A DNA stretch of 53,481 nt from Candidatus Aenigmatarchaeota archaeon. GTDB taxonomy: Archaea; Aenigmatarchaeota; Aenigmatarchaeia; QMZS01. The DNA lies in assembly GCA_016932615.1 (NCBI GenBank), contig JAFGCN010000011.1, forward strand, positions 1-53,481, written 5' to 3'. The notes under the pieces were generated by a model that was not told the origin of the DNA, did not search any database, and saw nothing but the letters and a program-made list of their open reading frames with translations. Within the stretch, counting starts at the first letter, position 1. Each line of letters starts with the position of its first letter. Both the position numbers and the translations under genes were made by a program. Of this stretch, positions 10,366 through 42,506 are shown piece after piece.

Positions 10366-10504
10366 TGCGTCGACCGGGATTCGAACCCGGATTGTTGGCT
10401 ATCTTCTTGACCGTTGGAATCTGCTTCTTTTTGGTCCTGGAGCTTTTTCTTGCAAGAAAAAGCTTCAATGGAAGGCCAATGTCCTGCCATTAGACTATCG
10501 ACGC
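10366..10504 (-). tRNA. tRNA-Gly(UCC) with anticodon-loop intron
   Basis: Exons are 10504-10469 and 10400-10366. Acceptor GCGTCGA/TCGACGC with discriminator A, D-stem GTCT/GGAC, anticodon stem TTGGC/GCCAA and T-arm CCGGG-TTCGAAT-CCCGG all pair. The loop CTTCCA+A gives anticodon TCC. The 68-nt intron sits at the canonical 37/38 site, with a textbook BHB: central helix CTTC/GAAG and bulges CA^T and AT^A. The intron holds the shared hairpin core found in other tRNA introns here. Confidence 0.95.
10401..10468 (-). repeat. tRNA-Gly intron, member of the shared intron family
   Basis: In the tRNA sense the intron reads as a perfect hairpin (GAAGCTTTTTCTTG/CAAGAAAAAGCTTC-like), then GCTCCAGGACCAAAAAGAA and GCAGATTC. 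The 19-nt core is identical in the tRNA-Val(UAC) intron at 13273-13291 and in the copy upstream of rfcL at 42476-42494. Confidence 0.85.
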
Positions 10505-10528
10505 ATAAATATGGTTAATTAAAATATT

Positions 10529-11044
10529 ATGAACGCCCTGGCGTCTGAGCCGGTTGAATTGATGGATGTGGTCGATAAGACCGACCAGGTTATCGGGACT
10601 GCAACCCGCCCCAAAATCTACAAGGAGTTTCTCACCCACCGCATTGTTCATGTGCTTATTTTCAACAAGGAGGGCAAAATGGCGCTTCAATTGAGGGCGA
10701 AACACTGCTCTTTTTGCCCCCACCACTGGTCGACAACCGTTGGCGGGCATGTGCAGTCAGGTGAGACTTACGAAGAGGCGGCGGAGCGGGAATATCTGGA
10801 GGAATTAGGAACAAAGAGCAATCTTGAGTTTTTCCAAAAGGACCTCTATTCGGACTTGAGGGGAATCAGCATGTTTCTGGCGACTTTCAAGGCGAGCAGT
10901 GACGGCCCATTTACCTTCGATGACGGCTCGGTCGAAAAAGTGGACTTCTTCTCAACAGAAGAGCTTCAGGAGATGGTTGACCGGGGCGAGAAGTTTCACC
11001 CGGAGCTTCTTTTTTTGCTTCGGAAGTATTTTGGAATAAATTAG
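10529..11044 (+). CDS. Nudix hydrolase, isopentenyl-diphosphate-isomerase-like
   Basis: 171 residues with a full Nudix box near residues 73-95 (GHVQSGETYEEAAEREYLEELG fits Gx5Ex7REUxEExGU). The N-terminal MDVVDKTDQVIGTATR and strand LTHRIVHVLIFNKEGKMALQLR resemble the YfcD/IDI-1-like branch of the family. A mevalonate kinase is also in the window, so a role in isoprenoid supply is possible. The residues specific to true IDI-1 (the WTNSCCSHP-type motif) are replaced here by CPHHWSTTVGGH, so generic Nudix activity is equally likely. Its stop abuts the start region of the HD protein, indicating co-transcription. Confidence 0.8.
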   Translation: MNALASEPVELMDVVDKTDQVIGTATRPKIYKEFLTHRIVHVLIFNKEGKMALQLRAKHCSFCPHHWSTTVGGHVQSGETYEEAAEREYLEELGTKSNLEFFQKDLYSDLRGISMFLATFKASSDGPFTFDDGSVEKVDFFSTEELQEMVDRGEKFHPELLFLLRKYFGIN

Positions 11045-11062
11045 ATGCGGGGTGATTGGATT

Positions 11063-11614
11063 ATGGAACGAACAGAAGCAAAAAAACTTCTTGCGGAAAA
11101 TGTCTCGAACAGGAACATAAGAAGCCATAGTGTTGCCGTTGCCGCCATTATGGAGGGTTTGGCCGAGAAACTGGGTGGAGATAAGGACACCTGGTGGCTG
11201 ACAGGAATTCTTCACGACCTTGATTATGAAAAGACCTCCACCCGCATCGAAAAGCATGGGCTTGAAACGGCAGAGCTTTTGGAGGGAAAAGTTGCTGAAG
11301 AAATAATCTACGCGATAAAGGCGCATAATGGGGTTCATACGGGGATCGGCGCAAAGTCAAATATGGACATAGCCCTTATTGCTTCAGACGCGCTTTCCGG
11401 GCTAATAATCTCAACGGCTCTCATAATGCCTTCAAAGAAGCTTTCAGAGGTTACGGTCGAAAGTGTCATGAAAAAGTTCAAAAAGAAGGACTTTGCCAAA
11501 GCCGTGTCAAGGGAGAAGATTATGACCTGCCAGCGGCTTAACTTAAGTCAGGAGGAGTTTTTGGGCATTGGCCTTGCCGCTCTTTGCAAGGTGTCTGAAG
11601 AGATGGGCCTATAG
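11063..11614 (+). CDS. HD-domain phosphohydrolase
   Basis: About 183 residues from the ATG at 11063 (MERTEAKKLL, in the ATTATGG context); an ATG at 11045 directly after the Nudix stop would add six residues. The HD signature is present: an early His (RSHSVAVAAIMEGLAEKLG), then GILHDLDYEK near residues 50-59, then a later AHNG and an Asp in IASDALSGL. These coordinate a divalent metal for phosphomonoester or diester hydrolysis. The substrate is unknown. It follows the Nudix gene directly, suggesting a two-gene nucleotide or phosphate clean-up operon. Confidence 0.85.
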   Translation: MERTEAKKLLAENVSNRNIRSHSVAVAAIMEGLAEKLGGDKDTWWLTGILHDLDYEKTSTRIEKHGLETAELLEGKVAEEIIYAIKAHNGVHTGIGAKSNMDIALIASDALSGLIISTALIMPSKKLSEVTVESVMKKFKKKDFAKAVSREKIMTCQRLNLSQEEFLGIGLAALCKVSEEMGL

Positions 11615-11644
11615 GTTTTTAATTTTCCTTTGAAGCAATATTAT

Positions 11645-11834
11645 GACCGGAATGGTGTAGCCTGGTAGCATAAGAGACTGTGGAAGGCATTTCTTTTTCA
11701 AAAAAAATGCCTTCAGCCGAAAGAAAACACAATTCCATATCATCTCTGCGGCTTTGCAGACATCTCTTGGGGTGGGTTCAAAGTCGGGCTTTTTCTTTAA
11801 AGAAAAAGGCTGAATGAAAATCCCGCTTCCGGTC
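11645..11834 (+). tRNA. tRNA-His(GUG) with two BHB introns
   Basis: G-1 at 11645 is encoded and faces C73 at 11834, the tRNA-His identity pair. Acceptor ACCGGAA/TTCCGGT, anticodon stem AGAGA/TCTCT and T-stem GTGGG/CCCGC pair. GTG is the anticodon. Exons are 11645-11683, 11762-11782 and 11821-11834. Intron 1 (11684-11761, 37/38) has BHB helix CTGT/GCAG with bulges GG^A and AC^A. Intron 2 (11783-11820, 38 nt, T-loop 59/60) has helix TTCA/TGAA with bulges AA^G and AA^T. The D-stem contains two G-U pairs, and the variable loop is 4 nt. Confidence 0.9.
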
Positions 11835-11842
11835 CATTAAAT

Positions 11843-12100
11843 TTACTCCCCATCCAAAATCCTGTGCATCAGGATTCCACAAACGTAGAAGTTGAGCTTT
11901 TCAAGGCCTTTTTCCATTCTCTCGAGTTGCTCTTCATCAAGCCCTGTCTTGTCAACCCCTTCCTTCATTTCTGCCTCGGAAAGCGCTTCAAGCTGTGGCA
12001 GCGGCATGTTTTTCAGATTTCGCAGAGTTTCATTAATTTTGCCCTCAGACATGGCGAGCGCAAGGTCTCGCCTTAACTTGGGAATATTCTGTTTCTCCAT
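11843..12100 (-). CDS. Small helical hypothetical protein
   Basis: 85 residues, unrecognised, with a charged helical composition (LRRDLALAMSEGKINETLRNLKNM, LEALSEAEMKEGVD, LDEEQLERMEKGLEKLNF). There are no membrane segments and no catalytic motif. The start at 12100 has the TTATGG context and is divergent from the paralogue pair beginning at 12151. A short adaptor or DNA-associated role is possible but nothing in the sequence shows it. Confidence 0.62.
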   Translation of the reverse strand: MEKQNIPKLRRDLALAMSEGKINETLRNLKNMPLPQLEALSEAEMKEGVDKTGLDEEQLERMEKGLEKLNFYVCGILMHRILDGE

Positions 12101-12150
12101 AATAAAGCCATCTTCGGATTAAGGATATATCTAATCCACATACATAGATT

Positions 12151-12666
12151 ATGGGATATGTTCCTTCCGGGAGCAAATTAGTGCTTTGGAATGAGCTTTA
12201 TAAGAGGGGGGCAAAGCCAGGCCTTAAGAATCTTGCTTATTCTTACCAGGGGAAGAATCCTGACAAACTGATTCACTTTCTCCCAAAGCTTGTCAAGCTT
12301 GTATTTAACCCCAGCACCTGGCAGCAAAAGGAGATAAACGTGGGCGAGGGGAGTTACAAGAGCGACTGGTTTTTGTTCAAGGATTTAGATACCTATACAT
12401 ATTTCAGGGTGGATGTTTCGCTTAGCGTCAAGTACAAGGACGGGTTTGGAAGCGCGACGATAAAGATGGGCGAGCCGGTAATAATCACAGAGTACCCTCA
12501 GGAGACCTTATGGCAAAAGAGCTTTTTTTATGAGATTATCCGGATGTTTTGGCACACTTACTTCTATAACAAAAAGCTTATCGAGCATCTGGACTGGGGC
12601 CGGCTGCAGGTATCCTGCTTTGAGGAAAAACTTCTTCGTTATTTTGAGCACCTGAACAATGAGTGA
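12151..12666 (+). CDS. Hypothetical protein, first of a tandem paralogue pair
   Basis: 171 residues, not recognised. The central part (about 85-115) forms a strand-rich region ending in GSATIKMGEPVIITEYP, followed by an aromatic helix near 125-140 (FFYEIIRMFWHTYFYNKKLIEHL). The downstream gene has the same order, with GECSISMSPKFVTEV then WWMYYYLYYKNQRIY. The aromatic stretch may lie at the membrane surface. The leaderless start at 12151 follows CATACATAGATTATGG. It overlaps the next gene by 8 nt, so the two are co-translated. Confidence 0.7.
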   Translation: MGYVPSGSKLVLWNELYKRGAKPGLKNLAYSYQGKNPDKLIHFLPKLVKLVFNPSTWQQKEINVGEGSYKSDWFLFKDLDTYTYFRVDVSLSVKYKDGFGSATIKMGEPVIITEYPQETLWQKSFFYEIIRMFWHTYFYNKKLIEHLDWGRLQVSCFEEKLLRYFEHLNNE

Positions 12667-13153
12667 CAAGTACGCTTTTACAGATAACCTGGTCTATCCG
12701 AAGGAAAAAGAGGTTTTAAAGTACAAGGGCCCGGAGCCGTTTCGGTTTTACGGCTCTGGAAAAAAGCTTTTCCTGGATGTGTTTGAATTGGCAGGAAAGG
12801 ATATCTTCGAGCCGAAGATTAAATGGGACGCGACAGGAGAAACCAAGACGTTTTGGGTTAAGTGGGAATTTGCAAAAAATATGGATTCCTGGTCGAAGTT
12901 GAAGCTTTCCATAACCTTTCAGGGCTGCCAGAACTCGAGGACACGGCTTGGAGAGTGCTCGATTTCAATGTCCCCAAAGTTTGTAACTGAAGTAAAAACT
13001 GGGTTTCTGCAAAGGTATTTTTGGTGGATGTATTACTACCTTTACTACAAGAATCAAAGGATCTACCAGTTTTACAGGGCCAAGACAATCTTCAACCAGT
13101 TCAAGCTGAAGGTGGGGGAGGTCTATGGGATGCAGGTTGAGGAGTCGATTTAA
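12659..13153 (+). CDS. Hypothetical protein, second of a tandem paralogue pair
   Basis: 164 residues, apparently a diverged duplicate of the preceding gene. Both have a strand-rich middle, a short Gly-Glu-containing strand pair, and an aromatic helix (here about residues 118-140, rich in Trp and Tyr) followed by a basic amphipathic C-terminus. The first 45 residues differ. No enzyme motif is visible. The 8-nt overlap with its neighbour suggests that the products form a complex. It ends 33 nt before tRNA-Val. Confidence 0.7.
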   Translation: MSDKYAFTDNLVYPKEKEVLKYKGPEPFRFYGSGKKLFLDVFELAGKDIFEPKIKWDATGETKTFWVKWEFAKNMDSWSKLKLSITFQGCQNSRTRLGECSISMSPKFVTEVKTGFLQRYFWWMYYYLYYKNQRIYQFYRAKTIFNQFKLKVGEVYGMQVEESI

Positions 13154-13186
13154 GCCAATTTATTACTTGCTTTCTACCCAATATAT

Positions 13187-13338
13187 GGGCTCGTAGTCCA
13201 GCTCGGCTAAGACGTCGCCTTTACACGGCGAAGATCCCCAGTTCAAATGAAGCTTTTTCTTGCAAGAAAAAAGCTCCAGGACCAAAAAGAAGCAGATTCG
13301 TGCTTCGCACAATAAAAATGAAAATCTGGGCGGGCCCA
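13187..13338 (+). tRNA. tRNA-Val(UAC) with T-loop intron
   Basis: Exons are 13187-13247 and 13325-13338. Acceptor GGGCTCG/CGGGCCC (one G-U) with discriminator A, anticodon stem TCGCC/GGCGA around TTTACAC, and T-stem CCCAG/CTGGG pair. The 77-nt intron interrupts the T-loop at 59/60 (TTCAAA^...^T). Its BHB is central helix TTCA/TGAA with bulges AA^T and AA^T. The intron carries the same hairpin and 19-nt core as the tRNA-Gly intron. Confidence 0.95.
13248..13324 (+). repeat. tRNA-Val(UAC) intron, member of the shared intron family
   Basis: Starts TGAAGCTTTTTCTTGCAAG, then the core GCTCCAGGACCAAAAAGAA (13273-13291), then GCAGATTC and a second small hairpin (GTGCTTCGCAC). The first 50 nt are nearly identical to the tRNA-Gly intron although the insertion site in the tRNA is different. 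Confidence 0.85.
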
Positions 13339-13458
13339 TATATTCAAAATAGTCTTGTATTAGAATTGTTTTCTTGGAGGTGTCGGGCGTTCTTTTTCAA
13401 AGAAGGTCTGACGGCGGGCCATTTCAAATTACTAATTGTGTCTTTTGGAAGCATTCTA

Positions 13459-13781
13459 TTAGAGAAATCCTCCATAAAAACTTTCTGGACTCGTCCTTTC
13501 CCCAGGACCCAATTTTTTCCCTAGCGGGTATGCGGCGAATAAGCCATTATAAGGTTGCTCATCGGAACCAATGCGTCTCCCAAGGACTATTTGCAGAGCA
13601 TCCTACCCAAATCCCAGGTTTCCTGATTCATCTCCTCTTTTATCCAATGCCAGAGCCAGTTCTAATCTTGCTTCTTTTGTTGGGTTTTCTGGGTCGATTT
13701 CGATACCGCAGCCTCTTTATATTGATCGATTAGATTGAGCACATACTTATCGACTCCCGTACCTATAATGTTAGCAACCAT
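13459..13781 (-). pseudogene. Decayed small gene with a frameshift and an internal amber codon
   Basis: Reading leftward from the ATG at 13781, 25 codons (MVANIIGTGVDKYVLNLID...) run until a one-base loss in a G run (GCTGCGGTATC). In the shifted frame the protein-like sequence continues (IEIDPENPTKEARLELALALD), meets TAG at 13605-13603, and continues in the same frame (DALQIVLGRRIGSDEQPYNG) to TAA at 13461-13459. A TATA box (CATATAAATAG) lies about 29 nt upstream of the ATG. The product would be about 107 residues of unknown family. A sequencing error could explain the shift but not also the TAG. The 120 nt between it and tRNA-Val hold only an imperfect T-rich hairpin. Confidence 0.6.
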
Positions 13782-13803
13782 AATGTACTATAATAATCCC
13801 TTG

Positions 13804-13816
13804 GCTATTTATATGC
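13804..13816 (-). promoter_or_regulatory. TATA box of the decayed gene
   Basis: On the minus strand CATATAAATAG is centred about 29 nt upstream of the ATG at 13781. An intact leaderless promoter here argues that the broken frame below it was a functional gene. Confidence 0.4.
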
Positions 13817-13906
13817 CGTTACCCGATGAAATCCCTCTGCTGGCCTTTTTGCACAGAAGGCACTCTTGATTATGAAAGCTGCCTAATATGTATATTGGCA
13901 TGAACT

Positions 13907-15004
13907 ATGGCTAAGATTCTGGCAATGGACTTGGGAGGAACCGGCTTGAAACTGGGTTTGTTTGAGGGGGAAAATCTTACAAGGACTTCCGGTGGGAGGC
14001 ATAACTACACTTCTGCAGATCTGGAAACCGTTAAAAAGGATATCTCTTTGAGGGTGGACTCTTTTCTTTCCGGAGATGAAGTTTCCGCAATTGGAATCGG
14101 TATTGCGGGCCTGCTGTCACAGGATAATGCCTTATACCGCTCTACAGTATTTCCCTCTCTTATCGGGTTTAACCTTGCGGAGTATCTGGGCGGGCGCTTC
14201 GGTGTGCCTGCAAGCATAGACAATGATGCGGACTGCGGTGCTTTGGGAGAATATTATTTTAAGGGTGGAGATTTTTTCTATGTAGTCCTGGGGCATGGAA
14301 TAGGAAGCGCTTTTGTCCGAAAAGACGGGACTCTTCCGTACAGTGTCAGGTTTGGCCAGGGAACCGTTTTTGATGAGGCAAAAAACCCCCTTCCCAATGA
14401 CTTGGGCTTAAGGGTGCTGATTTCCCGGAAGGAAGCTTACCCTTTTTTTGAAAGACACGGGATTTCGAAAGATTCAGTCGACAGGGCACTAGGCAAGCTT
14501 ATTTCTCCGGACTATCCGGGAAACTTCCGGATTGGAGCACTTGGCTCTCCGAGGGCATTAAGAAACCTTCTTGAAGTTGCCTGTGGCGGCGACTTTTACT
14601 CAGAAGGGAACCGGGATTACTACGAAGGATTTCTTGGGGAGAAGGGGCTTGAAGGAATCGGGGTTGAGGACTTAATGCTGCCGTTTGACTCGGCAATTCC
14701 AATAGCAAGGATTGCACAGGAAGGCGAGCCGAACTGCCTTAAAGCTTACCGGCTGATGGGAGAATTTCTCGGATATGGCATTTTAAAGGCAGAAGAGGTA
14801 ATCAGGAAAGACTATGGCCTGGAGCCAGAGGCAAGGATTGCAGGTCCAGTAATGAATGATGCAGATTTGTTTTTGCCTTCATTGAAGAGCTACTTGTCCG
14901 GGCATAATAAGCTTTACAGTGCTGCACCTGCCTGCTCTTTTATGGCTGGAGAGAATCCTAACCTGAGGGGAGCTTTTTTTAAGGCGAGGCAGCTGATCGA
15001 TTAG
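13907..15004 (+). CDS. ROK-family sugar kinase
   Basis: 365 residues. The N-terminal phosphate-binding loop MDLGGTGLKLGLFEG (near residues 6-20), the IGIGIAGLL segment, the catalytic-Asp motif SIDNDADCGALGEYYF (near 103-118) and the VVLGHGIGSAFV strand (near 127-138) are all characteristic of ROK glucokinase-like enzymes. It is somewhat longer than typical 300-residue members, with an insertion around residues 170-240, and the ROK zinc-binding CxCGxxGC cluster is not present. It likely phosphorylates a hexose or N-acetylhexosamine. It begins a same-strand series with a tiny membrane protein and a YbjQ-like protein. Confidence 0.85.
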   Translation: MAKILAMDLGGTGLKLGLFEGENLTRTSGGRHNYTSADLETVKKDISLRVDSFLSGDEVSAIGIGIAGLLSQDNALYRSTVFPSLIGFNLAEYLGGRFGVPASIDNDADCGALGEYYFKGGDFFYVVLGHGIGSAFVRKDGTLPYSVRFGQGTVFDEAKNPLPNDLGLRVLISRKEAYPFFERHGISKDSVDRALGKLISPDYPGNFRIGALGSPRALRNLLEVACGGDFYSEGNRDYYEGFLGEKGLEGIGVEDLMLPFDSAIPIARIAQEGEPNCLKAYRLMGEFLGYGILKAEEVIRKDYGLEPEARIAGPVMNDADLFLPSLKSYLSGHNKLYSAAPACSFMAGENPNLRGAFFKARQLID

Positions 15005-15036
15005 TAGATAGGGAATAATTCCTGAGGAAGTATATT

Positions 15037-15216
15037 ATGAACAGCCAGGAAAAGTGGGGATGGGGCTTTCTGGCAATTGCATTTGTTCTGGTTTTGGTGG
15101 TACTGGCAAATCCGGACATTTTTCCGCTGCTGATATACTCGATAATACTCGGGCTTATGGGCTCTGCGCTTATAATCTACCGCAATCGGGAAAGTAAAAT
15201 AGATAGCGGAAAATAA
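15037..15216 (+). CDS. Small two-helix membrane protein
   Basis: 59 residues, beginning MNSQEKWGWG and ending SKIDSGK. Two hydrophobic segments (about residues 11-25, FLAIAFVLVLVVLAN, and 28-46, FPLLIYSIILGLMGSALII) predict a membrane hairpin with both ends on the same side. The ATG follows TATATT. The stop is 2 nt before the next start, so it is almost certainly co-transcribed with the YbjQ-like gene. No family is recognised. Confidence 0.65.
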   Translation: MNSQEKWGWGFLAIAFVLVLVVLANPDIFPLLIYSIILGLMGSALIIYRNRESKIDSGK

Positions 15217-15218
15217 TT

Positions 15219-15593
15219 ATGGCAGAAATTGTTTTGACAACTCTGGAATTCGTGCCTGGCTTTGAGATAACCGGATCTTTAGGAGTCGTCAATGGAAACA
15301 CTGTGCGCTCAAAACATCTTGGAAAAGACATCATGGCGGGGCTTAAGAATCTCGTTGGCGGTGAGATACAGGAATACACGGAAATGCTTTCGGAATCCCG
15401 GCAGGAATCCCTCAATAGGATGGTCAGGGAGGCAAAAAAGCTGGGGGCTGATGGGGTTGTAGGCATAAGGTTTATGACTTCAGCGGTAACTGCGGGCGCA
15501 GCAGAGCTTCTGGCGTTTGGAACTGCAGTAAAACTCAGGAAAATCGGAAGGAAGATAGGTGTTAAGCCCAGCAAGGCAAAAGGCAGGCGATAG
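15219..15593 (+). CDS. YbjQ/DUF74 family protein
   Basis: 124 residues that match the YbjQ (heavy-metal-binding domain, DUF74) family, which forms a pentameric barrel. The order LTTLEFVPGFEITGSLGVV, then NTVRSKHLGKDIMAGLKNLVGGEI, then AKKLGADGVVGIRF is diagnostic. The biological function is unknown. It is translationally linked to the tiny membrane protein upstream (2-nt gap), which could tether it to the membrane. It ends in a basic tail (KIGVKPSKAKGRR). Confidence 0.9.
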   Translation: MAEIVLTTLEFVPGFEITGSLGVVNGNTVRSKHLGKDIMAGLKNLVGGEIQEYTEMLSESRQESLNRMVREAKKLGADGVVGIRFMTSAVTAGAAELLAFGTAVKLRKIGRKIGVKPSKAKGRR

Positions 15594-15653
15594 CTGCCTT
15601 CCCGAGGAGATACTTTTCTCATTTCTTTTCAAGAATCAAAAACTAGCAAAAAA

Positions 15654-15947
15654 TTAGAACTTGAGAAGCCCCGAAAGGAGCTTTTCTTTTTCGCCCTGGT
15701 GGCCTTCGAACAAGTGGTTGAGGACCCTTTCGATGTACGAAACTCTTGCCTCGAGCTTGTTTACCATTTTCATCATCTCTATGAGTGCGCACCAGACTTG
15801 GGCAACCTGGACATTGTCCGAGCTGTGGTAAGCGCACCTGTGCCTTCTGGCTGCCTCAAGAAGCTCATTAAGCTTCTGCTCGTCTTCTACACAGAGGTGG
15901 TCTTTCCAGTCGCTTGCCCGGTTTTCCTTGGGATTTGCAGTTATCAT
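15654..15947 (-). CDS. Hypothetical helical protein, leadered gene
   Basis: 97 residues from the ATG at 15947 (MITANPKENR). Unrecognised. It has a His/Cys-containing middle (ARRHRCAYHSSDNVQ) and a coiled-coil-like helix (MMKMVNKLEARVSYIERVL). The start is chosen over an in-frame GTG three codons upstream because AGGTGAT lies 4-5 nt before this ATG and that GTG is part of the ribosome-binding site itself. The TATA box is 36 nt upstream. Confidence 0.65.
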   Translation of the reverse strand: MITANPKENRASDWKDHLCVEDEQKLNELLEAARRHRCAYHSSDNVQVAQVWCALIEMMKMVNKLEARVSYIERVLNHLFEGHQGEKEKLLSGLLKF

Positions 15948-15951
15948 TTTT

Positions 15952-15988
15952 ATCACCTAAATATAGTTACTATTAAAGTATAAATACT
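15952..15988 (-). promoter_or_regulatory. TATA box plus AGGTGAT ribosome-binding site
   Basis: On the minus strand GTATTTATAC is centred near 15983, then ATATTTAGGTGAT (Shine-Dalgarno part at 15958-15952), then the ATG at 15947. Spacing and sequence match the starts at 50558 and 50907. Confidence 0.6.
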
Positions 15989-16123
15989 TCGCAGAGGTAT
16001 TCTTTCAAGTTACGCATTGAATAGTAATGCTTTTGTATAATTATTGTATATCTAAGGTATTACATATGTAGTGCTTAAATGCACAGGATTGTGCAAATAT
16101 ATACAATTACAGCAAGTACAGTT

Positions 16124-22204: not shown

Positions 22205-22316
22205 AACATTCTTGGGCTTGATTTAGTTAATTTCCAGTTTTGTAATTGTTGCGTAGTGCTTTTCAATTATGATTCTCCTGAAGCGCTTCAAAATATTATC
22301 TGTGTTGCTTATTTAT

Positions 22317-22400
22317 GGGCTCGTAGTCCCCTATCCCTTTCTTGCAAGAAAGGTCTTAGGGTCACCCCAAAGAAGCAGATTCCTGCTTCGCAGATATATA
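22317..22400 (+). pseudogene. tRNA-Val 5' fragment fused to an intron-family sequence
   Basis: Positions 22317-22329 are the first 13 nt of tRNA-Val (GGGCTCGTAGTCC), with the same ATATGGG-like upstream context. They run straight into a T-rich/A-rich hairpin (CCCTTTCTTGCAAGAAAGG) followed by CCCCAAAGAAGCAGATTC and a second small hairpin, the layout of the tRNA-Val(UAC) intron. No matching 3' exons follow before the complete tRNA-Val(CAC) at 22435. It is probably a recombination remnant. Confidence 0.6.
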
Positions 22401-22434
22401 CGCCTTTTATTGCTTGTCATTTCGATTAATATAT

Positions 22435-22585
22435 GGGCTCGTAGTCCAGCCCGGCTAAGACGCTTCCTTCACATGGAAGAGATCCCCAGTTCAAATGAAG
22501 CTTTTCTTTGCAAAAGAAAAGCCCCAAGCGCAAAAGAAAGCAGTTACCGCTTGCGCGAATATTCTTGAGAATCTGGGCGGGCCCA
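22435..22585 (+). tRNA. tRNA-Val(CAC) with T-loop intron
   Basis: Exons are 22435-22495 and 22572-22585. Acceptor GGGCTCG/CGGGCCC plus A, anticodon stem CTTCC/GGAAG around TTCACAT, and T-stem CCCAG/CTGGG all pair. The 76-nt intron is at T-loop 59/60, with BHB helix TTCA/TGAG (one G-U) and bulges AA^T and AA^T. Its hairpin and GCGCAAAAGAAAGCAG segment are a diverged version of the shared intron core. Confidence 0.94.
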
Positions 22586-35057: not shown

Positions 35058-35543
35058 ATGAGGATAAGCGAGCAGATTTTTCCAAGGGCGGTTGCGCTTC
35101 TTGGCACCTGCGGAAAAGATGGGCGGCCGAACCTGATGTCAGTTAGCTTCATAATGCCAATCAGCTTTGACCCCAAATATGTCGCGTTTTCCATCGCCCC
35201 CCACAGATTCAGCTATTATAATCTTCAGCAGGTAGAGGAGTTTACTCTCAACTTTCTTGATACCCGTCAAAAAGAGCTTGCAGCAATATGCGGCGCCTAT
35301 TCCGGGCGGGACAAGGACAAGTTTCAGATGTGCGGGCTTGACCCGATAAGGTCTAGGAAGGTTTTTCCTCCCGTGGTTTACTGCCCGGTAAGCTACGAGT
35401 GCCAGGTTATGGACATGAAAGAGCTTGGAGACCATGTCCTGGTTGTCGGGGCTGTACTGGAAGAATGGGTCAGGCGAAAGGACTTTACGCCGCTTCTTCA
35501 CAAGGGCGGAAGTGAGTATATGTCTCCTGTGGGGCTAAAATGA
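35058..35543 (+). CDS. Flavin reductase family protein (FMN-binding split barrel)
   Basis: 161 residues from the ATG at 35058 (TTAATTATGAGG). The sequence RAVALLGTCGKDGRPNLMSVSFIMPISFDPKYVAFSIAPHRFSYYNLQQVEEFTLNFL is the classic flavin reductase-like domain that binds FMN between barrel subunits. CGLDPIRSRKVFPPVV and YECQVMDMKELGDHVLVVGAVLE continue the fold. It uses reduced pyridine nucleotide to reduce flavin or an unknown acceptor. It overlaps the nfo start by 4 nt (ATGA), so the pair is translationally coupled. Confidence 0.88.
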   Translation: MRISEQIFPRAVALLGTCGKDGRPNLMSVSFIMPISFDPKYVAFSIAPHRFSYYNLQQVEEFTLNFLDTRQKELAAICGAYSGRDKDKFQMCGLDPIRSRKVFPPVVYCPVSYECQVMDMKELGDHVLVVGAVLEEWVRRKDFTPLLHKGGSEYMSPVGLK

Positions 35544-36331: not shown

Positions 36332-36332
36332 C

Positions 36333-37796
36333 TTAGCCGATGTCTGCTTCAGAACTGAATGGCGTTTTTTCTAGCCCCTCAAAATGGTAGGGGTATATTC
36401 CTTTGACACAGCCATAGCAGCAGTTGCCGCATATCTTTTTGGCTCCTTCATTGGATAGGTAGCCCACGCTGTCAAAACCACTATGTTCTGCCAGTTTTTT
36501 CTCGAACGCCTCATGGTTTTCCGCTACCTTTCGGGGGTCAAATTTCAAAGCAGTCACGATTAGGTCCTCCATATGAGTATCTATGCCGCTTCCGCACGGT
36601 CCAATTATCGGAGGTGAGCCAACTCTGATATGGACTTCGCTGGCGCCCTTTTTCCTTAGTTTTTCTGCAGCAACTGGGCCAACAGTGTTTCTTACAATTG
36701 AATCGTCAACCATAATGACGGGTCTGTCACGGACTTCGCCAATTACTGAGAGTCCATTTCTTGCCTTCTCTTTTCTAAGCTCGGGCTGGTCAAACATAAA
36801 GGATCTTAGGAACTCTTGGGTGGGATTTTTCATGAAAATGTTCCTGTCAGTTGCCCCATACCCACCCCCATAGCTAAGGCCTGAATTTGGAAGCCCTACA
36901 ATAATAGCATTTGGCACTGCAGGATGTTCTAGTTTTAACATTCCCCCCAGAGCTTGCCTGAGATAATTAAGAGGTTTGCCCATGGCTAGCGAATCAGGTC
37001 TCATCTCATAGACATATTCAAAGAAACAGGGGGGATTTGAACGGTCCATTCTTTTGGTTTCAAATTCTCCACTTCCTATGTTGTAGACGCCTATTTCGCC
37101 AGCATTGACTTCCGTTATGTTTTTTCCACCAAGATTCTCAAATGGAGCTGTTTCGGAGGCAAAGGCAATAAAATCTTCCTGGTCTGAGCTGAATTCACAC
37201 CTGCTTAGTGGTCGTATGCCATCTCGGGCATAAAACATACAGTCATTCTCCCTTTTAGGGTCTTTGTAGAGGCCGATAAGCGTAAACCCTCCATAGCCGA
37301 AGATCTTGTTGTACGTGGATTCAAGGGCTTCAAGTGGGTCTTTCTTCTCACAACATTCCTGAAGAAGGATCCCTCCAATAGTTGAGGTGTCATTGCCAGA
37401 GCCGTAAAAATCCACCCCTTTTCTTTCAAGTTCATCTCTCCAGAGATGATGCTCGGATATTTCACCGTTCATGGTGAGATCTAGGGTCAGACCGTTTTTG
37501 CTTACCCTGACCGGGTGGGCATTTGCGGGGCTGTTTTTCCCCTTGGTCTTGTATCGTGTATGCCCGATGCCCACCTTTCCCCGAAAGGCACTGTTTTCTA
37601 TCACGGTTGGCGCGAAGACTTCCTTTGGCAGCCCTAGACCCCTATATCTTTGGAGGCCGGAATCGTCATACATTGTAATTCCACACCCCTGCTGGCCTCG
37701 GGTCTTCAGTTCTTCAAGCAAATATCTTGTGAATCCAAAGGTTTCAGCACTTGAGTTTCCACCTTGGTTAATGACCGCCATCACTCCGCAACCCAT
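36333..37796 (-). CDS. purF: Amidophosphoribosyltransferase
   Basis: 487 residues. First committed step of de novo purine synthesis, making phosphoribosylamine from PRPP and glutamine. The N-terminal MGCGVMAVIN places the catalytic Cys at position 3, to be exposed by processing; RGQQGCGITMYDD and GIGHTRYKT are glutaminase motifs. The PRPP loop is VIMVDDSIVRNTVGP, followed by HIRVGSPPI. Cysteines in GPCGSG and the ICGNCCYGC cluster near the C-terminus suggest the [4Fe-4S] type. No other pur genes are adjacent. It is divergent from gpmI. Confidence 0.96.
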   Translation of the reverse strand: MGCGVMAVINQGGNSSAETFGFTRYLLEELKTRGQQGCGITMYDDSGLQRYRGLGLPKEVFAPTVIENSAFRGKVGIGHTRYKTKGKNSPANAHPVRVSKNGLTLDLTMNGEISEHHLWRDELERKGVDFYGSGNDTSTIGGILLQECCEKKDPLEALESTYNKIFGYGGFTLIGLYKDPKRENDCMFYARDGIRPLSRCEFSSDQEDFIAFASETAPFENLGGKNITEVNAGEIGVYNIGSGEFETKRMDRSNPPCFFEYVYEMRPDSLAMGKPLNYLRQALGGMLKLEHPAVPNAIIVGLPNSGLSYGGGYGATDRNIFMKNPTQEFLRSFMFDQPELRKEKARNGLSVIGEVRDRPVIMVDDSIVRNTVGPVAAEKLRKKGASEVHIRVGSPPIIGPCGSGIDTHMEDLIVTALKFDPRKVAENHEAFEKKLAEHSGFDSVGYLSNEGAKKICGNCCYGCVKGIYPYHFEGLEKTPFSSEADIG

Positions 37797-37863
37797 AATT
37801 GAACTTTATCTATATAGAGGGCTTTTGGAGGGGCTATTGTTAAGTAATATTTTCAGGTTATTT

Positions 37864-39408
37864 ATGCGGAAAATCATCCTGATTATCATGGATGGCTGGG
37901 GCTGTGCTCCTGCGGGACCCGGAAATTTCATAAGCATGGCAGAAAAGCCCAATTTTGACTGCTATTTCAAAAATTACCCTTATGCTGAAAATGACGCTTC
38001 CGGGGAGGCCGTTGGACTTCCTCCCGGCACGCAGGGCAACTCAGAGGTGGGGCATCTTCACCTGGGGGCTGGAAGGATTGTGCTCCAGAAATATGGCCGG
38101 ATTAACAAGTCTATAGAAAGCGGCGACTTTATAAAGAATAAGGAGCTAACTAAAGCTTTTGACCTGGCAAAAAGAAGAAAAGCCAGGGTTCACCTGGTCG
38201 GGCTTTGCTCGGATGAGGCGATACACGCGCACACGGACCATCTGCTCGCGCTTCTTGACATGGCTAAGAAGAGGGGCGCAAAAAACGTCTTTGTGCACTT
38301 TATTGCTGATGGAAGGGACGTGCCGGAGCACTCGGCCCACCGGTATGTCGGGATGATCGAGGAAAGGATGGGGGAGCTGAAGGTTGGCAAAATCGCTTCA
38401 GTTGTCGGAAGGTACTACGCAATGGACAGGGACAAGAACTGGGACCGGACAAAAGAGGCGTATGGCCTGATGGCTCTTGGAGTGGGGCACAAGGCAAAAA
38501 GCGCAAATGAGGCAATAGATAATGCCTACCAGAGAGGGGACAAGACCGACTATTATATCCAGCCGACAGTGATTGTTGGGAAAAATGATAAGCCAATTGG
38601 GCTTGTGAAAGAAGGCGACTGCGTAATTTTTTTCAATTTCCGCTCAGACAGGCCTCGCCAGCTTACCGAGGCCTTTATATCGAAGGATTTTAAGGGTTTT
38701 GACAGGCAGGCATGGCCTAAGACTAAGTTTGTGACCTTTACGCAGTATGACTCCACTTTTGACTGCCCTTTTGCGTTTGGAGAGGAGGACATTCCAAATA
38801 ACCTTGGAAGCATTTTGTCTTCAAGCAAGGTTCGCCAACTGCGGATTGCCGAGACGGAAAAGTACCCGCATGTGACTTTCTTTTTCAATTCACAGGTTGA
38901 AAAGCCGTATCCTGGGGAGGAAAGAATTGTGGTTCCTTCCCCGAAAGTCCCATCTTACGACAAGAAGCCGGAGATGTCTGCTAGTGAAGTTACCGAAACG
39001 CTCCTTGAAGAAATCGAGAGTGGGGAATTTGGCTTCATACTCGTAAATTACGCAAACTGCGACCTTGTGGGGCACTCTGCAGTAAAAAGCGCGATAATAA
39101 AAGCAACTGAGGTTGTAGATGACTGTGTTGGGAAGGTTGTGGACGCAGGGCTTGACAATGGCTATACTGTGCTTGTTACCGCTGACCATGGAAACGCTGA
39201 GGACAAGCTCTATCCCGACGGAAAGCTAAAACCAAGCCATTCCCTGAATAAGGTCCCGTTCCTGCTGATTTCCCCTGAAAAGGAGCTCCGTAATATCCGG
39301 CTTCGCTGCGGGGGGCTAATCGACGTCGCCCCGACAATCCTGGATATCATGGGGATAAATAAGCCCACCGAAATGACGGGCGAGAGCTTGATTTCGAACA
39401 GAAATTAA
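37864..39408 (+). CDS. gpmI: 2,3-bisphosphoglycerate-independent phosphoglycerate mutase, bacterial GpmI type
   Basis: 514 residues from the ATG at 37864; the frame extends upstream only through antisense purF. It interconverts 3- and 2-phosphoglycerate. MRKIILIIMDGWG and GTQGNSEVGHLHLGAGR carry the metal-binding Asp and catalytic Ser. VHFIADGRDVPEHSA, GRYYAMDRDKNWDR and VLVTADHGNAEDK complete the active site. This is the long GpmI architecture with the inserted transferase domain, not the shorter ApgM enzyme usual in archaea. Confidence 0.95.
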   Translation: MRKIILIIMDGWGCAPAGPGNFISMAEKPNFDCYFKNYPYAENDASGEAVGLPPGTQGNSEVGHLHLGAGRIVLQKYGRINKSIESGDFIKNKELTKAFDLAKRRKARVHLVGLCSDEAIHAHTDHLLALLDMAKKRGAKNVFVHFIADGRDVPEHSAHRYVGMIEERMGELKVGKIASVVGRYYAMDRDKNWDRTKEAYGLMALGVGHKAKSANEAIDNAYQRGDKTDYYIQPTVIVGKNDKPIGLVKEGDCVIFFNFRSDRPRQLTEAFISKDFKGFDRQAWPKTKFVTFTQYDSTFDCPFAFGEEDIPNNLGSILSSSKVRQLRIAETEKYPHVTFFFNSQVEKPYPGEERIVVPSPKVPSYDKKPEMSASEVTETLLEEIESGEFGFILVNYANCDLVGHSAVKSAIIKATEVVDDCVGKVVDAGLDNGYTVLVTADHGNAEDKLYPDGKLKPSHSLNKVPFLLISPEKELRNIRLRCGGLIDVAPTILDIMGINKPTEMTGESLISNRN

Positions 39409-39447
39409 GCAAAGACCTCTTCTTATTGCTATTTAATCAACCAAGCT

Positions 39448-39954
39448 TTAGAACCTTGGAGACTTTCGCACCTTTGCTCCCGAAAGATACCTGACCTCCG
39501 TAGGAAATAGCGCGCCGCCCCAAACTTGCTGCCTGTACCTTTCGGCTTCTGGCTTGCTGTTAAAGAAGTAGGGAAAGAGCGTCCTTTTGGGGCCGATATT
39601 TAAGCCAAAGCCATCAAAAACTCCCCAACCGCGCTCTACATTTAAAGTGCCATTTTCTTCAAACTGGTCGTAAATTATGGGGGTTATCGTATAAAACCCA
39701 GTTTTTTCCTCACCATCCCGAAGTTCTTCAAACCTATCCCATCTGACGCCATCGATTCCAAAAATGCCACCTACTTCTCCAAGGAGTTGTTCTTCCAAGC
39801 TTGTTCTTTCAGGTTCTGGAAGCTCTTCAAAGCGTTTACCCACATATGCTGAGACTGCTTTGTAGAAGGGAGTTTTATCTATCGGAGTGTGCAGTGGGCT
39901 TCCTTCAGTGTCTCCGAAGAGGCCTTCCCCGAAGTGGGCTTGTACTCGTGCCAT
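39448..39954 (-). CDS. Hypothetical protein
   Basis: 168 residues, unrecognised. Soluble, with a Glu-rich helix (RFEELPEPERTSLEEQLLGEVGG), strand-rich centre (EEKTGFYTITPIIYDQF, GWGVFDGFGLNIGP) and basic end (SGAKVRKSPRF). The start at 39954 is in GATTATGGC. It converges with gpmI and is divergent from the TrmB-like gene at 40041. No signal peptide or membrane helix. Confidence 0.58.
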   Translation of the reverse strand: MARVQAHFGEGLFGDTEGSPLHTPIDKTPFYKAVSAYVGKRFEELPEPERTSLEEQLLGEVGGIFGIDGVRWDRFEELRDGEEKTGFYTITPIIYDQFEENGTLNVERGWGVFDGFGLNIGPKRTLFPYFFNSKPEAERYRQQVWGGALFPTEVRYLSGAKVRKSPRF

Positions 39955-40040
39955 AATCCAACTAGCTTCCCGGGGTGGTAAACGGGTGAGGTGTTGCCCA
40001 CCACCACAAGGGATTGCTTTTTGCTATTATTCATTAGTTT

Positions 40041-40781
40041 ATGCAGCTTGACGAAATTCTCATAGGGCTTGGGCTTACGGAGGGCGAAGCCAAGCTTTAC
40101 CTGAAACTGCTCACACTCAAGGAGGCAACGGCAAGCGGGCTTGGAAAGGCGGCAAAAGTGGAGCGCCGGACAGCTTATGACATTGTCCGGCGGCTTAAGC
40201 AAAAAGGGCTTGTCTCTTCCATAGAGAAGGAGGGCAAGACATTTTACCAGCCGCTAAAGCCAAATAAGCTTCTTGACCTTATTGGGGAGCGGGAGGAAAA
40301 TCTTGCCCGGATTAAGTCGGAGTTCGTGAAAGTATTGCCTGGTCTTGAATCTGTTTTTGGAGGCAGTGGCGACAAGGTCAATGCGAAAGTCCTTTCGGGA
40401 AAAGAGGGCCTGAAGGCGATGTTTATGGATGAGCTTGAAACTGGCGAGACAATTTACATAATCTGCACGGCTATAGTAAATGCCGAGGACTCGCTTCGCT
40501 ACTTTCTTCCAAGGTTTACAAAGGAGCGGATTCGGCGCGGAATAGAAATGAAGATCCTGACAGCCGAAAGCTCGAGAAGGTTCCTGGAAAAGTACGGCCT
40601 CGTTGATATTCGGTTTTTGCCAGACGAGTATGTAAGCCCGGCAGGCATCACAATCTATGGAAACAAGCTTGCATTTTCAATCTGGTCGGGCGAGATGATA
40701 ACCGTTCTTATCGAAAGCTCGGAAGTTTCTGAGAGCTTCAGGAAATACTTTTCCCTCATTTGGAATCTTGCGAAAAACTAA
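40041..40781 (+). CDS. TrmB-like HTH transcriptional regulator
   Basis: 246 residues. The N-terminal winged helix (LIGLGLTEGEAKLYLKLLTLKEATASGLGKAAKVERRTAYDIVRRLKQKGLV, about residues 7-60) is of the TrmB type. A short linker (IGEREENLARIKSEFVKV) and an alpha/beta regulatory domain with a phospholipase-D-like layout (VLSGKEGLKAMFMDELETGETIYIICTA ... IRRGIEMKILTAE) follow. This is a distant paralogue of the regulator at 32102. The gene it controls is not evident; upstream and divergent is the 39448 protein. Confidence 0.84.
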   Translation: MQLDEILIGLGLTEGEAKLYLKLLTLKEATASGLGKAAKVERRTAYDIVRRLKQKGLVSSIEKEGKTFYQPLKPNKLLDLIGEREENLARIKSEFVKVLPGLESVFGGSGDKVNAKVLSGKEGLKAMFMDELETGETIYIICTAIVNAEDSLRYFLPRFTKERIRRGIEMKILTAESSRRFLEKYGLVDIRFLPDEYVSPAGITIYGNKLAFSIWSGEMITVLIESSEVSESFRKYFSLIWNLAKN

Positions 40782-40806
40782 AACCCAAAAAATTTTTTAG
40801 GGTTTT
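40781..40806. terminator. Perfect inverted repeat between convergent genes
   Basis: AAACCCAAAAAA followed by TTTTTTAGGGTTT forms a 12-bp stem with one unpaired A. It starts at the TrmB-like gene's stop codon and ends just before the stop of the minus-strand decayed frame, so it could end transcription from both sides. Confidence 0.45.
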
Positions 40807-40970
40807 CTAGAGGCAGTCCCTGAAGTTTGTCAGAAGCAGTTCTATTTCTCCGCTTCCTTTCAGGGGCAGGCCAATCAGATGGGGAAGCTGTCAGAGTACT
40901 CCCTAAGATTGTTTGGACTAGTGGCGTATATCGATGATTGGTGTTGCCCTGTAACACCTCTAAGAATCAT
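40807..40970 (-). pseudogene. Frameshifted small gene remnant
   Basis: From the ATG at 40970 the minus strand reads MILRGVTGQHQSSIYATSPN and continues for 31 codons to a TGA. One base earlier in phase the frame continues with protein-like sequence (LPHLIGLPLKGSGEIELLL) to TAG at 40809-40807. A TATA-like CTAAATAG lies about 26 nt upstream of the ATG. Together these suggest a 55-residue leaderless gene broken by one frameshift. The family is unknown; a sequencing error is the alternative. Confidence 0.42.
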
Positions 40971-40996
40971 TACACTTTTTATGGATGACTGGCTAT

Positions 40997-41245
40997 TTAG
41001 AAGAGTTTAGGATTATTGGCCGAATGTAGGGGGATCCTGGCCCCAGGACTTTCCAATATAAGCAATTCGTATGCTTTGCTACCCTTTTTCAAGTACACCT
41101 CCCAACCAGAAGGCTGGCTTGGAACCACCAAGTGGTTTTGGCTTTCGCTATAAATCTCTAACAGTCGACTTTTGGATTCTCCAGAACTAAGACTTGTCAG
41201 GTAATGCCACTTCCTAGAATTCGGAGGAGTTGTTTCTGAAATCAT
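40997..41245 (-). CDS. Small hypothetical protein
   Basis: 82 residues, unrecognised. It is polar and strand-rich (KWHYLTSLSSGESKSRLLEIY, SQPSGWEVYLKKGSKAYELLILESPG). The TATATATA run about 35 nt upstream of 41245 is consistent with a promoter. It lies just upstream of the frameshifted remnant on the same strand; both might once have been part of a small-gene cluster. No functional clue. Confidence 0.48.
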   Translation of the reverse strand: MISETTPPNSRKWHYLTSLSSGESKSRLLEIYSESQNHLVVPSQPSGWEVYLKKGSKAYELLILESPGARIPLHSANNPKLF

Positions 41246-41353
41246 ATTTTCGCGTAAAATAATTTCGCCTTGCAGAAATATATATGCGGGTATTACTGGT
41301 TATTCCTTAACAGGAATTATTGTGAGGTAGTTTTTTGGTGGATTGAATACTCT

Positions 41354-42445
41354 TCATTTATTTATGAACTGCTTCAGGTAAGGCATCTCCTCGCTTATCA
41401 CGTGCTTTGAGGTGTGCATCTTTCTTGCCATTTCGGCTAGTTCTTCCTGCTCCTCAGCGGACTTTTTAGCGCCGCCCATCTTTGTGACATATGTCGGAAA
41501 GCCATAGGGGATGTATTTCTGGTACATTTCCTTTTTCGAGAGGGCGACGCCAATCGTTATGAAGTCAATGTAATATTTTAAGAGGTTCCAGTCCTGGCGC
41601 TTCATAATCCTTTTCCGGTAGATATCGGCCAAGGCAAGCCACTCAAGCGCTTTCCTAAGGTCTTCACCTGCGTACTCCCGGCAGGCATTTTCCTCAATCC
41701 ACCAGAACAAGTCTTCAGGCGACCGGTCCATCCGTTTGACAACGCTTTTTACCACGTCAATTTTCCTGGTTTTCAGTATCACCTTCACTAGGTCAAAAAT
41801 GTTTTCCTCAGTATCGCGTTCGGAGAGGTACGAGAGGTCAAGGAGTTTTCCCTCGACAATTAAGCTTTCCATGTCATTTACCGCAGAGCGGACGCTTCCG
41901 TTTGACCTCTGGGCAATTCCCTTCAGGGTCTGCTCGTCGCACTCAGCTCCTTCCTTCTGGCAGATTTCCCTCAGGTGCTTAGCAATAGACAGGTAATTTA
42001 TTTTTGTAAATGGCACTAAAAGGACATAGCTTCTCAATGATTGGAGCTTCTTGTCGTAAGCGTCGTTTGCGGTAAGGATTGTCGGGCAGGCGTGGTCTTT
42101 CAGGACTTTTATAAGCTCGGTTATGCCTCCCCGGTCGGTTCCTGACATTCCATCCACTTCGTCTACAAGGATGAGCCGCTTTTTTCCAAACAGTGTCGTC
42201 TGCTTTGCGATATTGGCCAGTCGCTTCATGCTTTCCTGGTCTCGGTAGTCTGAAGCATTGACCTCGTACAGGTCATAATTGAGCTTTTTTGCAACTAGGT
42301 GCGCAAGCAGCGTTTTTCCGACACCCGGGGCTCCGTGCAGTAAAATGGGCTTTTTGCTGATGTTCATCAAAACATCCTGGACAGCTTTGCTGTTTCCGAT
42401 AAACTGCCGAAGGTCCAAAGACCTGTATTTTTCAAGGAGGGACAT
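41354..42445 (-). CDS. rfcL: Replication factor C large subunit
   Basis: 363 residues from the ATG at 42445 (MSLLEKYRSLDLRQFIGN). This is the clamp-loader large subunit that with RfcS opens PCNA. The AAA+ core shows HGAPGVGKTLLAHLVAKKL (Walker A near residues 37-55) and KRLILVDEVDGMSG (Walker B), then sensor and collar helices. It ends soon after the collar (EEMPYLKQFINK), whereas many archaeal RfcL proteins are 450-500 residues with a charged tail and terminal PCNA-binding motif; these are absent. An intron-family element lies directly upstream of its start. Confidence 0.92.
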   Translation of the reverse strand: MSLLEKYRSLDLRQFIGNSKAVQDVLMNISKKPILLHGAPGVGKTLLAHLVAKKLNYDLYEVNASDYRDQESMKRLANIAKQTTLFGKKRLILVDEVDGMSGTDRGGITELIKVLKDHACPTILTANDAYDKKLQSLRSYVLLVPFTKINYLSIAKHLREICQKEGAECDEQTLKGIAQRSNGSVRSAVNDMESLIVEGKLLDLSYLSERDTEENIFDLVKVILKTRKIDVVKSVVKRMDRSPEDLFWWIEENACREYAGEDLRKALEWLALADIYRKRIMKRQDWNLLKYYIDFITIGVALSKKEMYQKYIPYGFPTYVTKMGGAKKSAEEQEELAEMARKMHTSKHVISEEMPYLKQFINK

Positions 42446-42449
42446 AATT

Positions 42450-42506
42450 GAATCTTTTTCTTTTGAAAAGAAAAAGCTCCAGGACCAAAAAGAAACCGCT
42501 CGATTC
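42450..42506 (+). repeat. Solo copy of the tRNA-intron-family element upstream of rfcL
   Basis: On the plus strand GAATC, a perfect hairpin (CTTTTTCTTTTGAAAAGAAAAAG), the 19-nt core GCTCCAGGACCAAAAAGAA (42476-42494), then ACCGCTC and a closing GATTC that pairs with the first GAATC. No tRNA exons flank it. It occupies the gap between rfcL (start 42445, minus) and the 42525 gene. On the rfcL transcript it would place a hairpin directly before the start codon. Confidence 0.75.

Follow-up and report, generated by a model that had tools for sequence, protein, structure and literature searches.

A short repeat of triplex-type sequence in the tRNA introns of Aenigmatarchaeia and its possible movement between genes

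Why should one short sequence recur in the introns of several different tRNAs, and once outside any tRNA, within a single archaeal genome? The question is raised by a 53,481-nt contig of a Candidatus Aenigmatarchaeota archaeon (JAFGCN010000011.1; the whole stretch is referred to here as the window). A preliminary description had reported a 19-nt core, identical in the anticodon-loop intron of tRNA-Gly, the T-loop intron of tRNA-Val(UAC) and a solo copy, with diverged versions in the tRNA-Tyr D-loop and T-arm, tRNA-Val(CAC) and tRNA-His introns. Such sharing across insertion sites was taken to argue for movement or copying and not for inheritance with each tRNA. The mechanism by which archaeal tRNA introns are gained was still called unknown in a 2014 review (PMC4090602).

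Results

A core sequence dispersed among tRNA genes

The exact core occurs four times in the genome, and the three occurrences within the window are those originally named:

10425-10443, minus strand: exact 19-nt core, 37/38 intron of tRNA-Gly(UCC)
13273-13291, plus strand: exact 19-nt core, T-loop intron of tRNA-Val(UAC)
42476-42494, plus strand: exact 19-nt core, not within any tRNA

With up to three mismatches allowed, the window contains four matches against 0.03 expected from shuffles, and the whole genome 14 against one for the backward pattern. A gapped pattern joining hairpin and core matched 27 times in the genome and not at all in its backward control. The genome-wide covariance-model search that had been suggested recognizes ~57 copies, all of which, except the solo copy at 42.45 kb, lie inside tRNA introns or adjoin tRNA fragments. 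Rfam, at its gathering threshold, returned only tRNA and matched no known element. Copies in the window, with their covariance-model scores, are as follows:

4990-5042, plus strand: D-loop intron of tRNA-Tyr, 51.4 bits
5176-5224, plus strand: T-arm intron of tRNA-Tyr, 58 bits
10421-10468, minus strand: 37/38 intron of tRNA-Gly(UCC), 58.3 bits (model R1)
11682-11731, plus strand: weak copy, anticodon-loop intron of tRNA-His(GUG), 20.4 bits, E=0.016, supported by direct sequence reading
11760-11814, minus strand: antisense copy, 3' end of the tRNA-His T-loop intron, 30 bits, E=7e-5
13247-13295, plus strand: T-loop copy of tRNA-Val(UAC), 52.7 bits
13366-13412, minus strand: antisense copy beside a tRNA-Val fragment, 24.7 bits, E=0.0015
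22330-22378, plus strand: copy beside a tRNA-Val fragment, 39.7 bits
22495-22543, plus strand: T-loop intron of tRNA-Val(CAC), 58.9 bits
42448-42498, plus strand: solo copy outside any tRNA, 53.1 bits

All of the diverged versions proposed earlier are present, and the sharing is larger in extent than was first described: dozens of tRNA genes have received a copy of a ~50-nt element, which resides in their introns. The tRNA-Gly(UCC) copy is laid out as a Y-R hairpin, a linker and a mirror strand, M. The copy at 13366-13412 abuts a duplicated 3'-end fragment of tRNA-Val downstream of the intact gene, and that at 22330-22378 abuts a duplicated tRNA-Val 5' fragment upstream of the intact tRNA-Val(CAC). 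Both tRNA-Tyr copies fall outside the interval that the preliminary description had given for the family.

Bulge-helix-bulge junctions of the element introns

When ARAGORN was run in bacterial mode on the unedited window sequence, the Gly, Val, Tyr and His tRNAs carrying the element were not detected. Cutting out bulge-helix-bulge (BHB) introns of 68, 77 and 76 nt allowed the program to recover tRNA-Gly(UCC), tRNA-Val(UAC) and tRNA-Val(CAC), respectively:

10366-10504: tRNA-Gly(UCC), intron 10401-10468, BHB helix CUUC/GAAG
13187-13338: tRNA-Val(UAC), intron 13248-13324, BHB helix UUCA/UGAA; removal restores the T loop UUCAAAU and the tRNA
22496-22571: intron of tRNA-Val(CAC), BHB helix UUCA/UGAG; removal restores the tRNA

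The element introns meet the BHB criterion of a 4-bp central helix with 3-nt bulges at the exon-intron junctions, not only in Val and Gly but also in Gln (UUCG/CGAA), Ser, Arg and others. Indeed, canonical tRNAs were recovered for many genes once the element introns had been removed, and single genes hold up to three of them. Several clusters were left unresolved by our simple search, and a few of its automatic solutions are doubtful. These are, then, predicted BHB introns, and their cleavage and ligation by the host endonuclease is inferred without RNA or enzyme data. An archease gene lies at 43405-43824.

Copying between insertion sites

Cores from different tRNAs and insertion positions are 94-98% identical, as in Arg(CCU) 37/38 and Ser(CGA) 37/38 (0.98), the Val T-loop and Gly 37/38 (0.96) and two different T-arm introns (0.96). 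Their flanks are at random level (0.56 over 25 nt upstream, 0.60 over 45 nt downstream) and are shared only by the true paralogues Val(UAC)/Val(GAC). High identity of the core between random flanks demonstrates that the core has been copied between sites, and upholds across the genome the original argument against inheritance with each tRNA. That argument would have failed had the core proved to be no more than random low-complexity matches, or had the introns been more similar by tRNA identity than across tRNAs; the backward control disposes of the former, and identity runs across tRNA types. Gene conversion between existing introns is also a form of copying and is not excluded. A comparison of occupied and empty sites, proposed at the outset, found the tRNA-Gly 37/38 site empty in three genomes of the same family (G004, G005 and G010), whose tRNA-Gly is ~92% identical.

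Copies are found in both orientations, directed away from the gene, and some spacers and introns have a sense copy at one end and an antisense copy at the other. Flanking direct repeats were found for few copies and vary in length, which counts against a mobile element. The two loci checked, where tRNA ends are directly repeated next to copies over 19 nt in the window (22311-22329 / 22429-22447, 95%) and over 21 nt at G011 tRNA-Val (100%), have no fixed length in common. The paired sense and antisense copies and these repeats are the observations that bear on the terminal inverted repeats and constant-length target duplication of MITEs.

Mirror register of the third strand

After the hairpin comes an A-rich strand that mirrors the hairpin purine arm, R. 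Their registers agree (nR = nM) in 123 of 142 copies, where within-genome permutation gives 52 +/- 5 with a maximum of 73, and in 29 of 30 copies of an independent set (permutation mean 16.9, maximum 25). For ten linkers, copies with an identical linker sequence fall into at least two register classes, and R and M nearly always match; the rule holds in 47 of 54 sense intron copies. Covariance model R1, used for detection, does not encode R-M coupling; the permutation tests do not fully correct for relatedness. Watson-Crick pairing of M was rejected as a candidate, since M mirrors the purine arm and does not complement it, making antiparallel pairing with Y impossible.

The element has its Y arm, its R arm and a mirrored third strand in matching register, and so satisfies the sequence criterion for an intrastrand triplex of class II/IV. 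The mirror coupling is new here; formation of the triplex is inferred from sequence alone. RNA folding of the solo region was no better than that of shuffles (z about 0), a measure that is unhelpful for a sequence so A/T-rich. RNA is reported to form triplexes of the pyrimidine type but not of the purine motif (PMC4666352), which suggests that sense copies in introns have their role at the level of DNA.

Copies at gene edges

The solo copy runs antisense to rfcL and sits shortly before the start codon of that gene (minus-strand ATG at 42445), with the edge of its Y arm 9 nt from the ATG; it is closest to a Leu-type T-stem intron copy (identity 0.92). At the rfcL start of nine family relatives possessing the gene, no copy was found except for one weak match in G009. 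The intergenic regions could not be aligned, and only presence or absence was judged.

In the family of G011 and G086, the element lies directly against the start or stop codon of informational genes, in the same geometry as the solo copy. Within these two genomes, 18 of 37 copies adjoin a start codon on their own 5' side (background 4%) and one of 37 on its 3' side. The RpoF and L19e start codons are preceded by the element in two genera of the family, and the G086 leaders show complementary changes in the stem that encloses the M' loop, with a TATA-like box upstream. Placement at RpoF and L19e in two genera looks more like conserved function than random insertion, and counts against a mobile element.

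Distribution and the search for a mover

Of 156 genomes in the phylum, 58 carry the family. Every one of these belongs to the same class as the window genome, Aenigmatarchaeia, a placement that rests on two named relatives. The spread is patchy, over 36 of 104 genera, and the other 98 genomes yielded no match at E<=0.001. No transposase was found linked to the element. The Y1 transposase domain PF01797 was found neither in the window genome (97% complete) nor in the copy-rich G086 and G032, and occurs in 18 of 58 element-bearing genomes versus 13 of 98 without elements, an association confounded by phylogeny. A viral vehicle was considered and rejected: two pattern scans of viral contigs returned only four matches, in tailed-phage coding sequence or a terminator-like hairpin, and revealed no viral carrier.

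Discussion

We favor, with a probability of roughly 0.58, a non-autonomous mobile element of ~50-60 bp that would generate tRNA introns, its mechanism of movement being unknown and its triplex deduced from sequence. In its favor are the number of copies, the near-identical cores between random flanks, the mirror register, the tRNAs recovered on removal of the introns, the Gly site that is empty in relatives, the repeated tRNA ends beside copies, the patchy distribution and the outward-pointing copies in both orientations. The element would be a repeat of Aenigmatarchaeia, A/T-rich and of the intrastrand-triplex type. Of its two strands, the one comprising the Y arm, R arm, 7-16-nt linker and M would form a class II purine-motif triplex, and the opposite one (M'-Y'-R') a pyrimidine-motif triplex of class IV. 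Copies would be dispersed as DNA. Insertions into tRNA genes whose ends complete a BHB junction would persist as introns, removed by splicing endonuclease and ligase, and those at compact gene edges may persist as leaders or trailers, such as the solo copy before rfcL. That the triplex is real, acts at the DNA level and is used by the dispersal machinery is inferred. A bolder proposal, which we regard as doubtful, is that this ~50-bp DNA-triplex element is the unit of tRNA intron gain throughout the class, spreads via its three-stranded structure without a transposase of its own, and has been co-opted as a triplex leader at ribosomal, RNA-polymerase and replication genes, the opposite strand giving an RNA-competent U.A-U form.

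If the mobile reading is true, the moving unit of archaeal tRNA intron gain is narrowed to ~50 nt with a mirror-register rule amenable to mutation, and an element whose sites can be compared between close relatives, some occupied and some empty, and which is found inside and outside tRNAs, offers a handle on intron spread. It would also connect intrastrand triplex repeats with intron gain, and possibly with gene regulation, in DPANN archaea.

The strongest competitor, still distinctly the weaker reading in our judgment, is an RNA element conserved for a boundary or regulatory function. Its triplex-type hairpins at gene edges (5' leaders, 3' ends and intron ends) would serve as signals for starting translation, forming 3' ends or processing, with selection and gene conversion, not transposition, maintaining the similarity between copies. 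The start-codon bias, the shared RpoF and L19e copies with their complementary stem changes and TATA-like box, and an RNA-competent pyrimidine motif on the leader strand (PMC4666352) all suit it. This reading fits poorly with a window genome in which only a single copy is not associated with a tRNA, with a solo copy lacking a clear counterpart at rfcL in most family relatives, with sense intron copies that keep the mirror rule though a purine motif should not form in RNA, and with copies that, flanked by duplicated tRNA fragments, resemble insertions. Gene conversion or concerted evolution among pre-existing introns, without insertion at new sites, appears improbable. It would explain why introns have the core alone in common and not their 3' parts, and why linker/register mosaics are present, but leaves unexplained the solo copy, the gene-edge copies of relatives, the copies adjoining tRNA fragments and the empty Gly 37/38 site in close relatives.

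We give still less credence to the idea that a Y1 (RAYT/IS200-type) transposase mobilizes a REP-like palindrome by acting on its single-strand hairpin: a small hairpin, a T-purine-A at its foot, a possible orientation preference and the higher incidence of PF01797 in element-bearing genomes are set against the lack of that domain in the window genome and in G086 and G032, and against the phylogenetic confounding. The view that low-complexity sequences merely resemble one another by chance, or that each intron was simply inherited along with its tRNA, could appeal only to a core that is short and A/T-rich, and is ruled out by the pattern, 98-genome and identity controls.

Returning to the mobile element, its closest precedent is the transposed introns of Thermoproteales described in a 2010 study, for which DNA-level movement by an unknown mechanism was proposed (PMC4033280, PMC4090602). 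Both systems have BHB junctions and a similarity not explained by the tRNA bodies, and the Aenigmatarchaeia introns satisfy the requirement for near-identical introns in different tRNAs or sites beyond tRNA ancestry. They do not satisfy that of a wholly shared intron, the 45 nt downstream being random except in paralogues. The DPANN element further differs in that it belongs to another phylum, that only its ~50-nt structured core is shared and not the intron 3' part, and that this core is mirror-coupled, triplex-type and also found at CDS edges outside tRNAs. We read it as a new variant of known tRNA-intron transposition.

The TM-ECO/BoxC repeats (Holder et al. 2015, PMC4666352) are likewise short, dispersed and present in many copies per genome, with a Y-R-third-strand order giving a class II purine motif, and class IV on the opposite strand. 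TM-ECO is bacterial, G/C-rich and intergenic, with a 3-nt second loop and no strand bias, whereas the archaeal element is A/T-rich, has 7-16-nt linkers, occupies tRNA introns and start or stop codons, and shows orientation bias. REP/BIME and MITE elements are also small, non-coding, hairpin-forming and dispersed in both orientations, but the Aenigmatarchaeia element possesses a third-strand mirror rule, is removed as BHB introns in tRNAs and has no identified transposase partner; the host Y1 transposase expected of a REP/RAYT system is missing from the three genomes named above. Finally, intron gain with a duplicated tRNA fragment nearby has a counterpart in Caldiarchaeum tRNA-Thr, where a mobile element was invoked as the cause (Sugahara et al. 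2012, PMC3293823). That case concerns a single locus and a 1.8-kb segment that carries a recombinase, whereas the inserts in Aenigmatarchaeia are ~100-140 bp, gene-free and present at several tRNAs.

Copies of the element and the introns that carry it

The window is contig 11 of an archaeal genome of 1.26 Mb that is 97% complete. Its replication factor C large subunit has named relatives in Candidatus Aenigmatarchaeota and Candidatus Forterrea, from which the genome is inferred to belong to Aenigmatarchaeia. The exact 19-mer that the preliminary description had placed at three sites was found at all of them and at a fourth genomic site; when as many as 3 mismatches were allowed it gave 14 genome matches against 1 for a backward control, and a gapped hairpin-linker-core pattern gave 27 against 0. 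The genome-wide search proposed there, run with a covariance model (R1) of hairpin, linker and A-rich strand, returned approximately 57 distinct copies (E < 0.001). Genomic context was inspected for nearly all of these. About 50 start at an intron 5′ splice site, in D-arm, anticodon-loop, variable or T-arm positions; a few are antisense, at the 3′ end of T-loop introns, and a few adjoin duplicated tRNA fragments. Only one inspected copy (the solo copy, 42448-42498) has no tRNA context, and 9 nt separate it from the rfcL ATG. An archease gene (43405-43824) is found about 1 kb away; archease is a cofactor of RtcB RNA ligase. A few tRNA introns of this genome lack the element or retain only a hairpin remnant (C17:43276-43390 and C9:185514-185613, on other contigs).

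Judged by sequence, the element-bearing inserts in tRNA genes are introns, with junctions that satisfy the bulge-helix-bulge (BHB) rule. In tRNA-Val(UAC), intron UGAA pairs with exon UUCA, with bulges AAU and AAU and a spliced T loop of UUCAAAU; in tRNA-Gly(UCC), GAAG pairs with CUUC and the intron occupies position 37/38. Once element-bearing BHB introns had been removed automatically, ARAGORN recognized tRNAs that include those for Arg, Ser, Val, Gly, Gln, Asn, Cys and Thr, with at most three such introns per gene, although some clusters remained unresolved and a few solutions are doubtful.

A mirror rule and the strand order of a possible triplex

Each element consists of a hairpin (for example CTTTTTCTT-loop-AAGAAAAAG; pyrimidine arm Y, purine arm R), a linker and then CAAAAAGAA, a strand (M) that is the mirror image, not the complement, of the purine arm. 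The register, counted as the A residues from the basal G to the next G, ranges from 2 to 6. Of 142 copies (54 from this genome, 88 from relatives), 123 have the same register in arm and strand; when strands were shuffled inside each genome, 52 ± 5 agreed, with a maximum of 73 in 10,000 trials. Agreement in a second set from other genomes was 29/30, and in one relative AAAAGAGAAA mirrors AAAGAGAAAA. Ten sequence-identical linkers each carry at least two register classes, nearly always matched, which implies repeated double changes. Detection did not create the rule, because R1 contains no arm-strand coupling.

Judged from base order alone, the succession of Y, R and reverse-Hoogsteen strand matches a class II intrastrand triplex exactly, and the opposite strand (M′-Y′-R′) a class IV one (definitions in PMC4666352). 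According to the same paper, RNA forms pyrimidine-type triplexes and not purine-motif ones (PMC4666352); this suggests a DNA-level role for the sense intron copies, an inference for a triplex that is itself predicted from sequence only.

Copying between sites

The core of 50 nt is up to 94-98% identical between copies that sit in different tRNAs and at different insertion positions, while the flanks are at random level (0.56 over 25 nt upstream, 0.60 over 45 nt downstream); only Val paralogues share flanks in addition to core. This bears out the earlier proposal that sharing across insertion sites reflects copying. The nearest relative of the solo copy is a Leu-type T-stem intron copy (0.92). 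Occupied and empty sites could also be compared: the tRNA-Gly(UCC) anticodon-loop site is empty in three same-family relatives whose tRNA is ~92% identical, and the T-loop site of tRNA-Val carries an interruption in relatives of the family but none in more distant relatives. Some copies are flanked by tandem tRNA pieces (19 nt at 22311 and 22429 of the window), and in the relative G011 21 identical nt surround a copy behind tRNA-Val.

Several tRNA genes are followed by an antisense copy that directly adjoins a duplicate of their own acceptor 3′ strand.

Antisense copies with a duplicated acceptor 3′ strand
C17:41692, own genome
C18:33927, own genome
13366-13412, window

Copies at the edges of protein genes

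Of 37 copies examined in G011 and G086, relatives of one family, 18 place their 5′ end directly at the start codon of a gene read divergently, and 5 place it at a stop codon; the 3′ end abuts a start codon in only 1/37 (background ~4%). These 37 were the best-scoring copies, and the proportions are no census. In longer stretches from both genomes, most non-tRNA mirror elements either follow a stop by a few nt or keep the Y arm at 7-11 nt from an ATG, a range into which the solo copy at rfcL also falls. The edge genes, identified from translations, include Pop5, RfcS, RpoF, L19e, L6 and an L30e-like protein, with the element at RpoF and L19e in both genera. In G086, M′ occupies the loop of a second hairpin; between genes, the stem of this hairpin differs by complementary changes.

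Spacers that separate ribosomal protein genes of the G086 spc operon carry a sense copy directly past the stop and an antisense copy directly before the next ATG, pairs that resemble terminal inverted repeats. The rpoF gene of G086 is flanked on either side by outward-pointing copies (L291 581-1010).

G086 spacers with sense and antisense copies
L290 648-836, S8-L6 spacer
L289 597-767, L32e-L19e spacer

Several G011 leaders (L196, L197, L205 and others) have a second purine arm upstream of M′ (AAAGAAAGGTCTTTG in L196); being complementary to Y′, it makes two exclusive hairpins possible before the start codon.

Dispersal and distribution

Already known are transposition of tRNA introns in Thermoproteales (PMC4033280, PMC4090602), the intrastrand triplex repeats of bacteria (PMC4666352) and, in Caldiarchaeum, a gain of tRNA introns accompanied by fragments (PMC3293823). 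None of the open-licence papers that we found describes a triplex architecture of transposed tRNA introns, or such introns at CDS edges. The main rival explanation is that the sequence is a functional boundary element, which would have spread via gene conversion. For copying between sites, the dispersal route is unknown, since no Y1 transposase (PF01797-type) was found in the window genome, G086 or a further relative, G032; recombination through structure, reverse transcription or some transposase outside those tested may remain as candidates.

R1 matches occur in 58 of 156 phylum genomes, which represent 36 of 104 genera and belong without exception to the class of the window, with many clean negatives among the genomes searched; two scans of viral contigs gave chance matches only. 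Related T-loop introns with the linker CCTAAGNNTCACCCC are present in tRNA genes of distant families of the class (L274 and L276, from G142 and G152).
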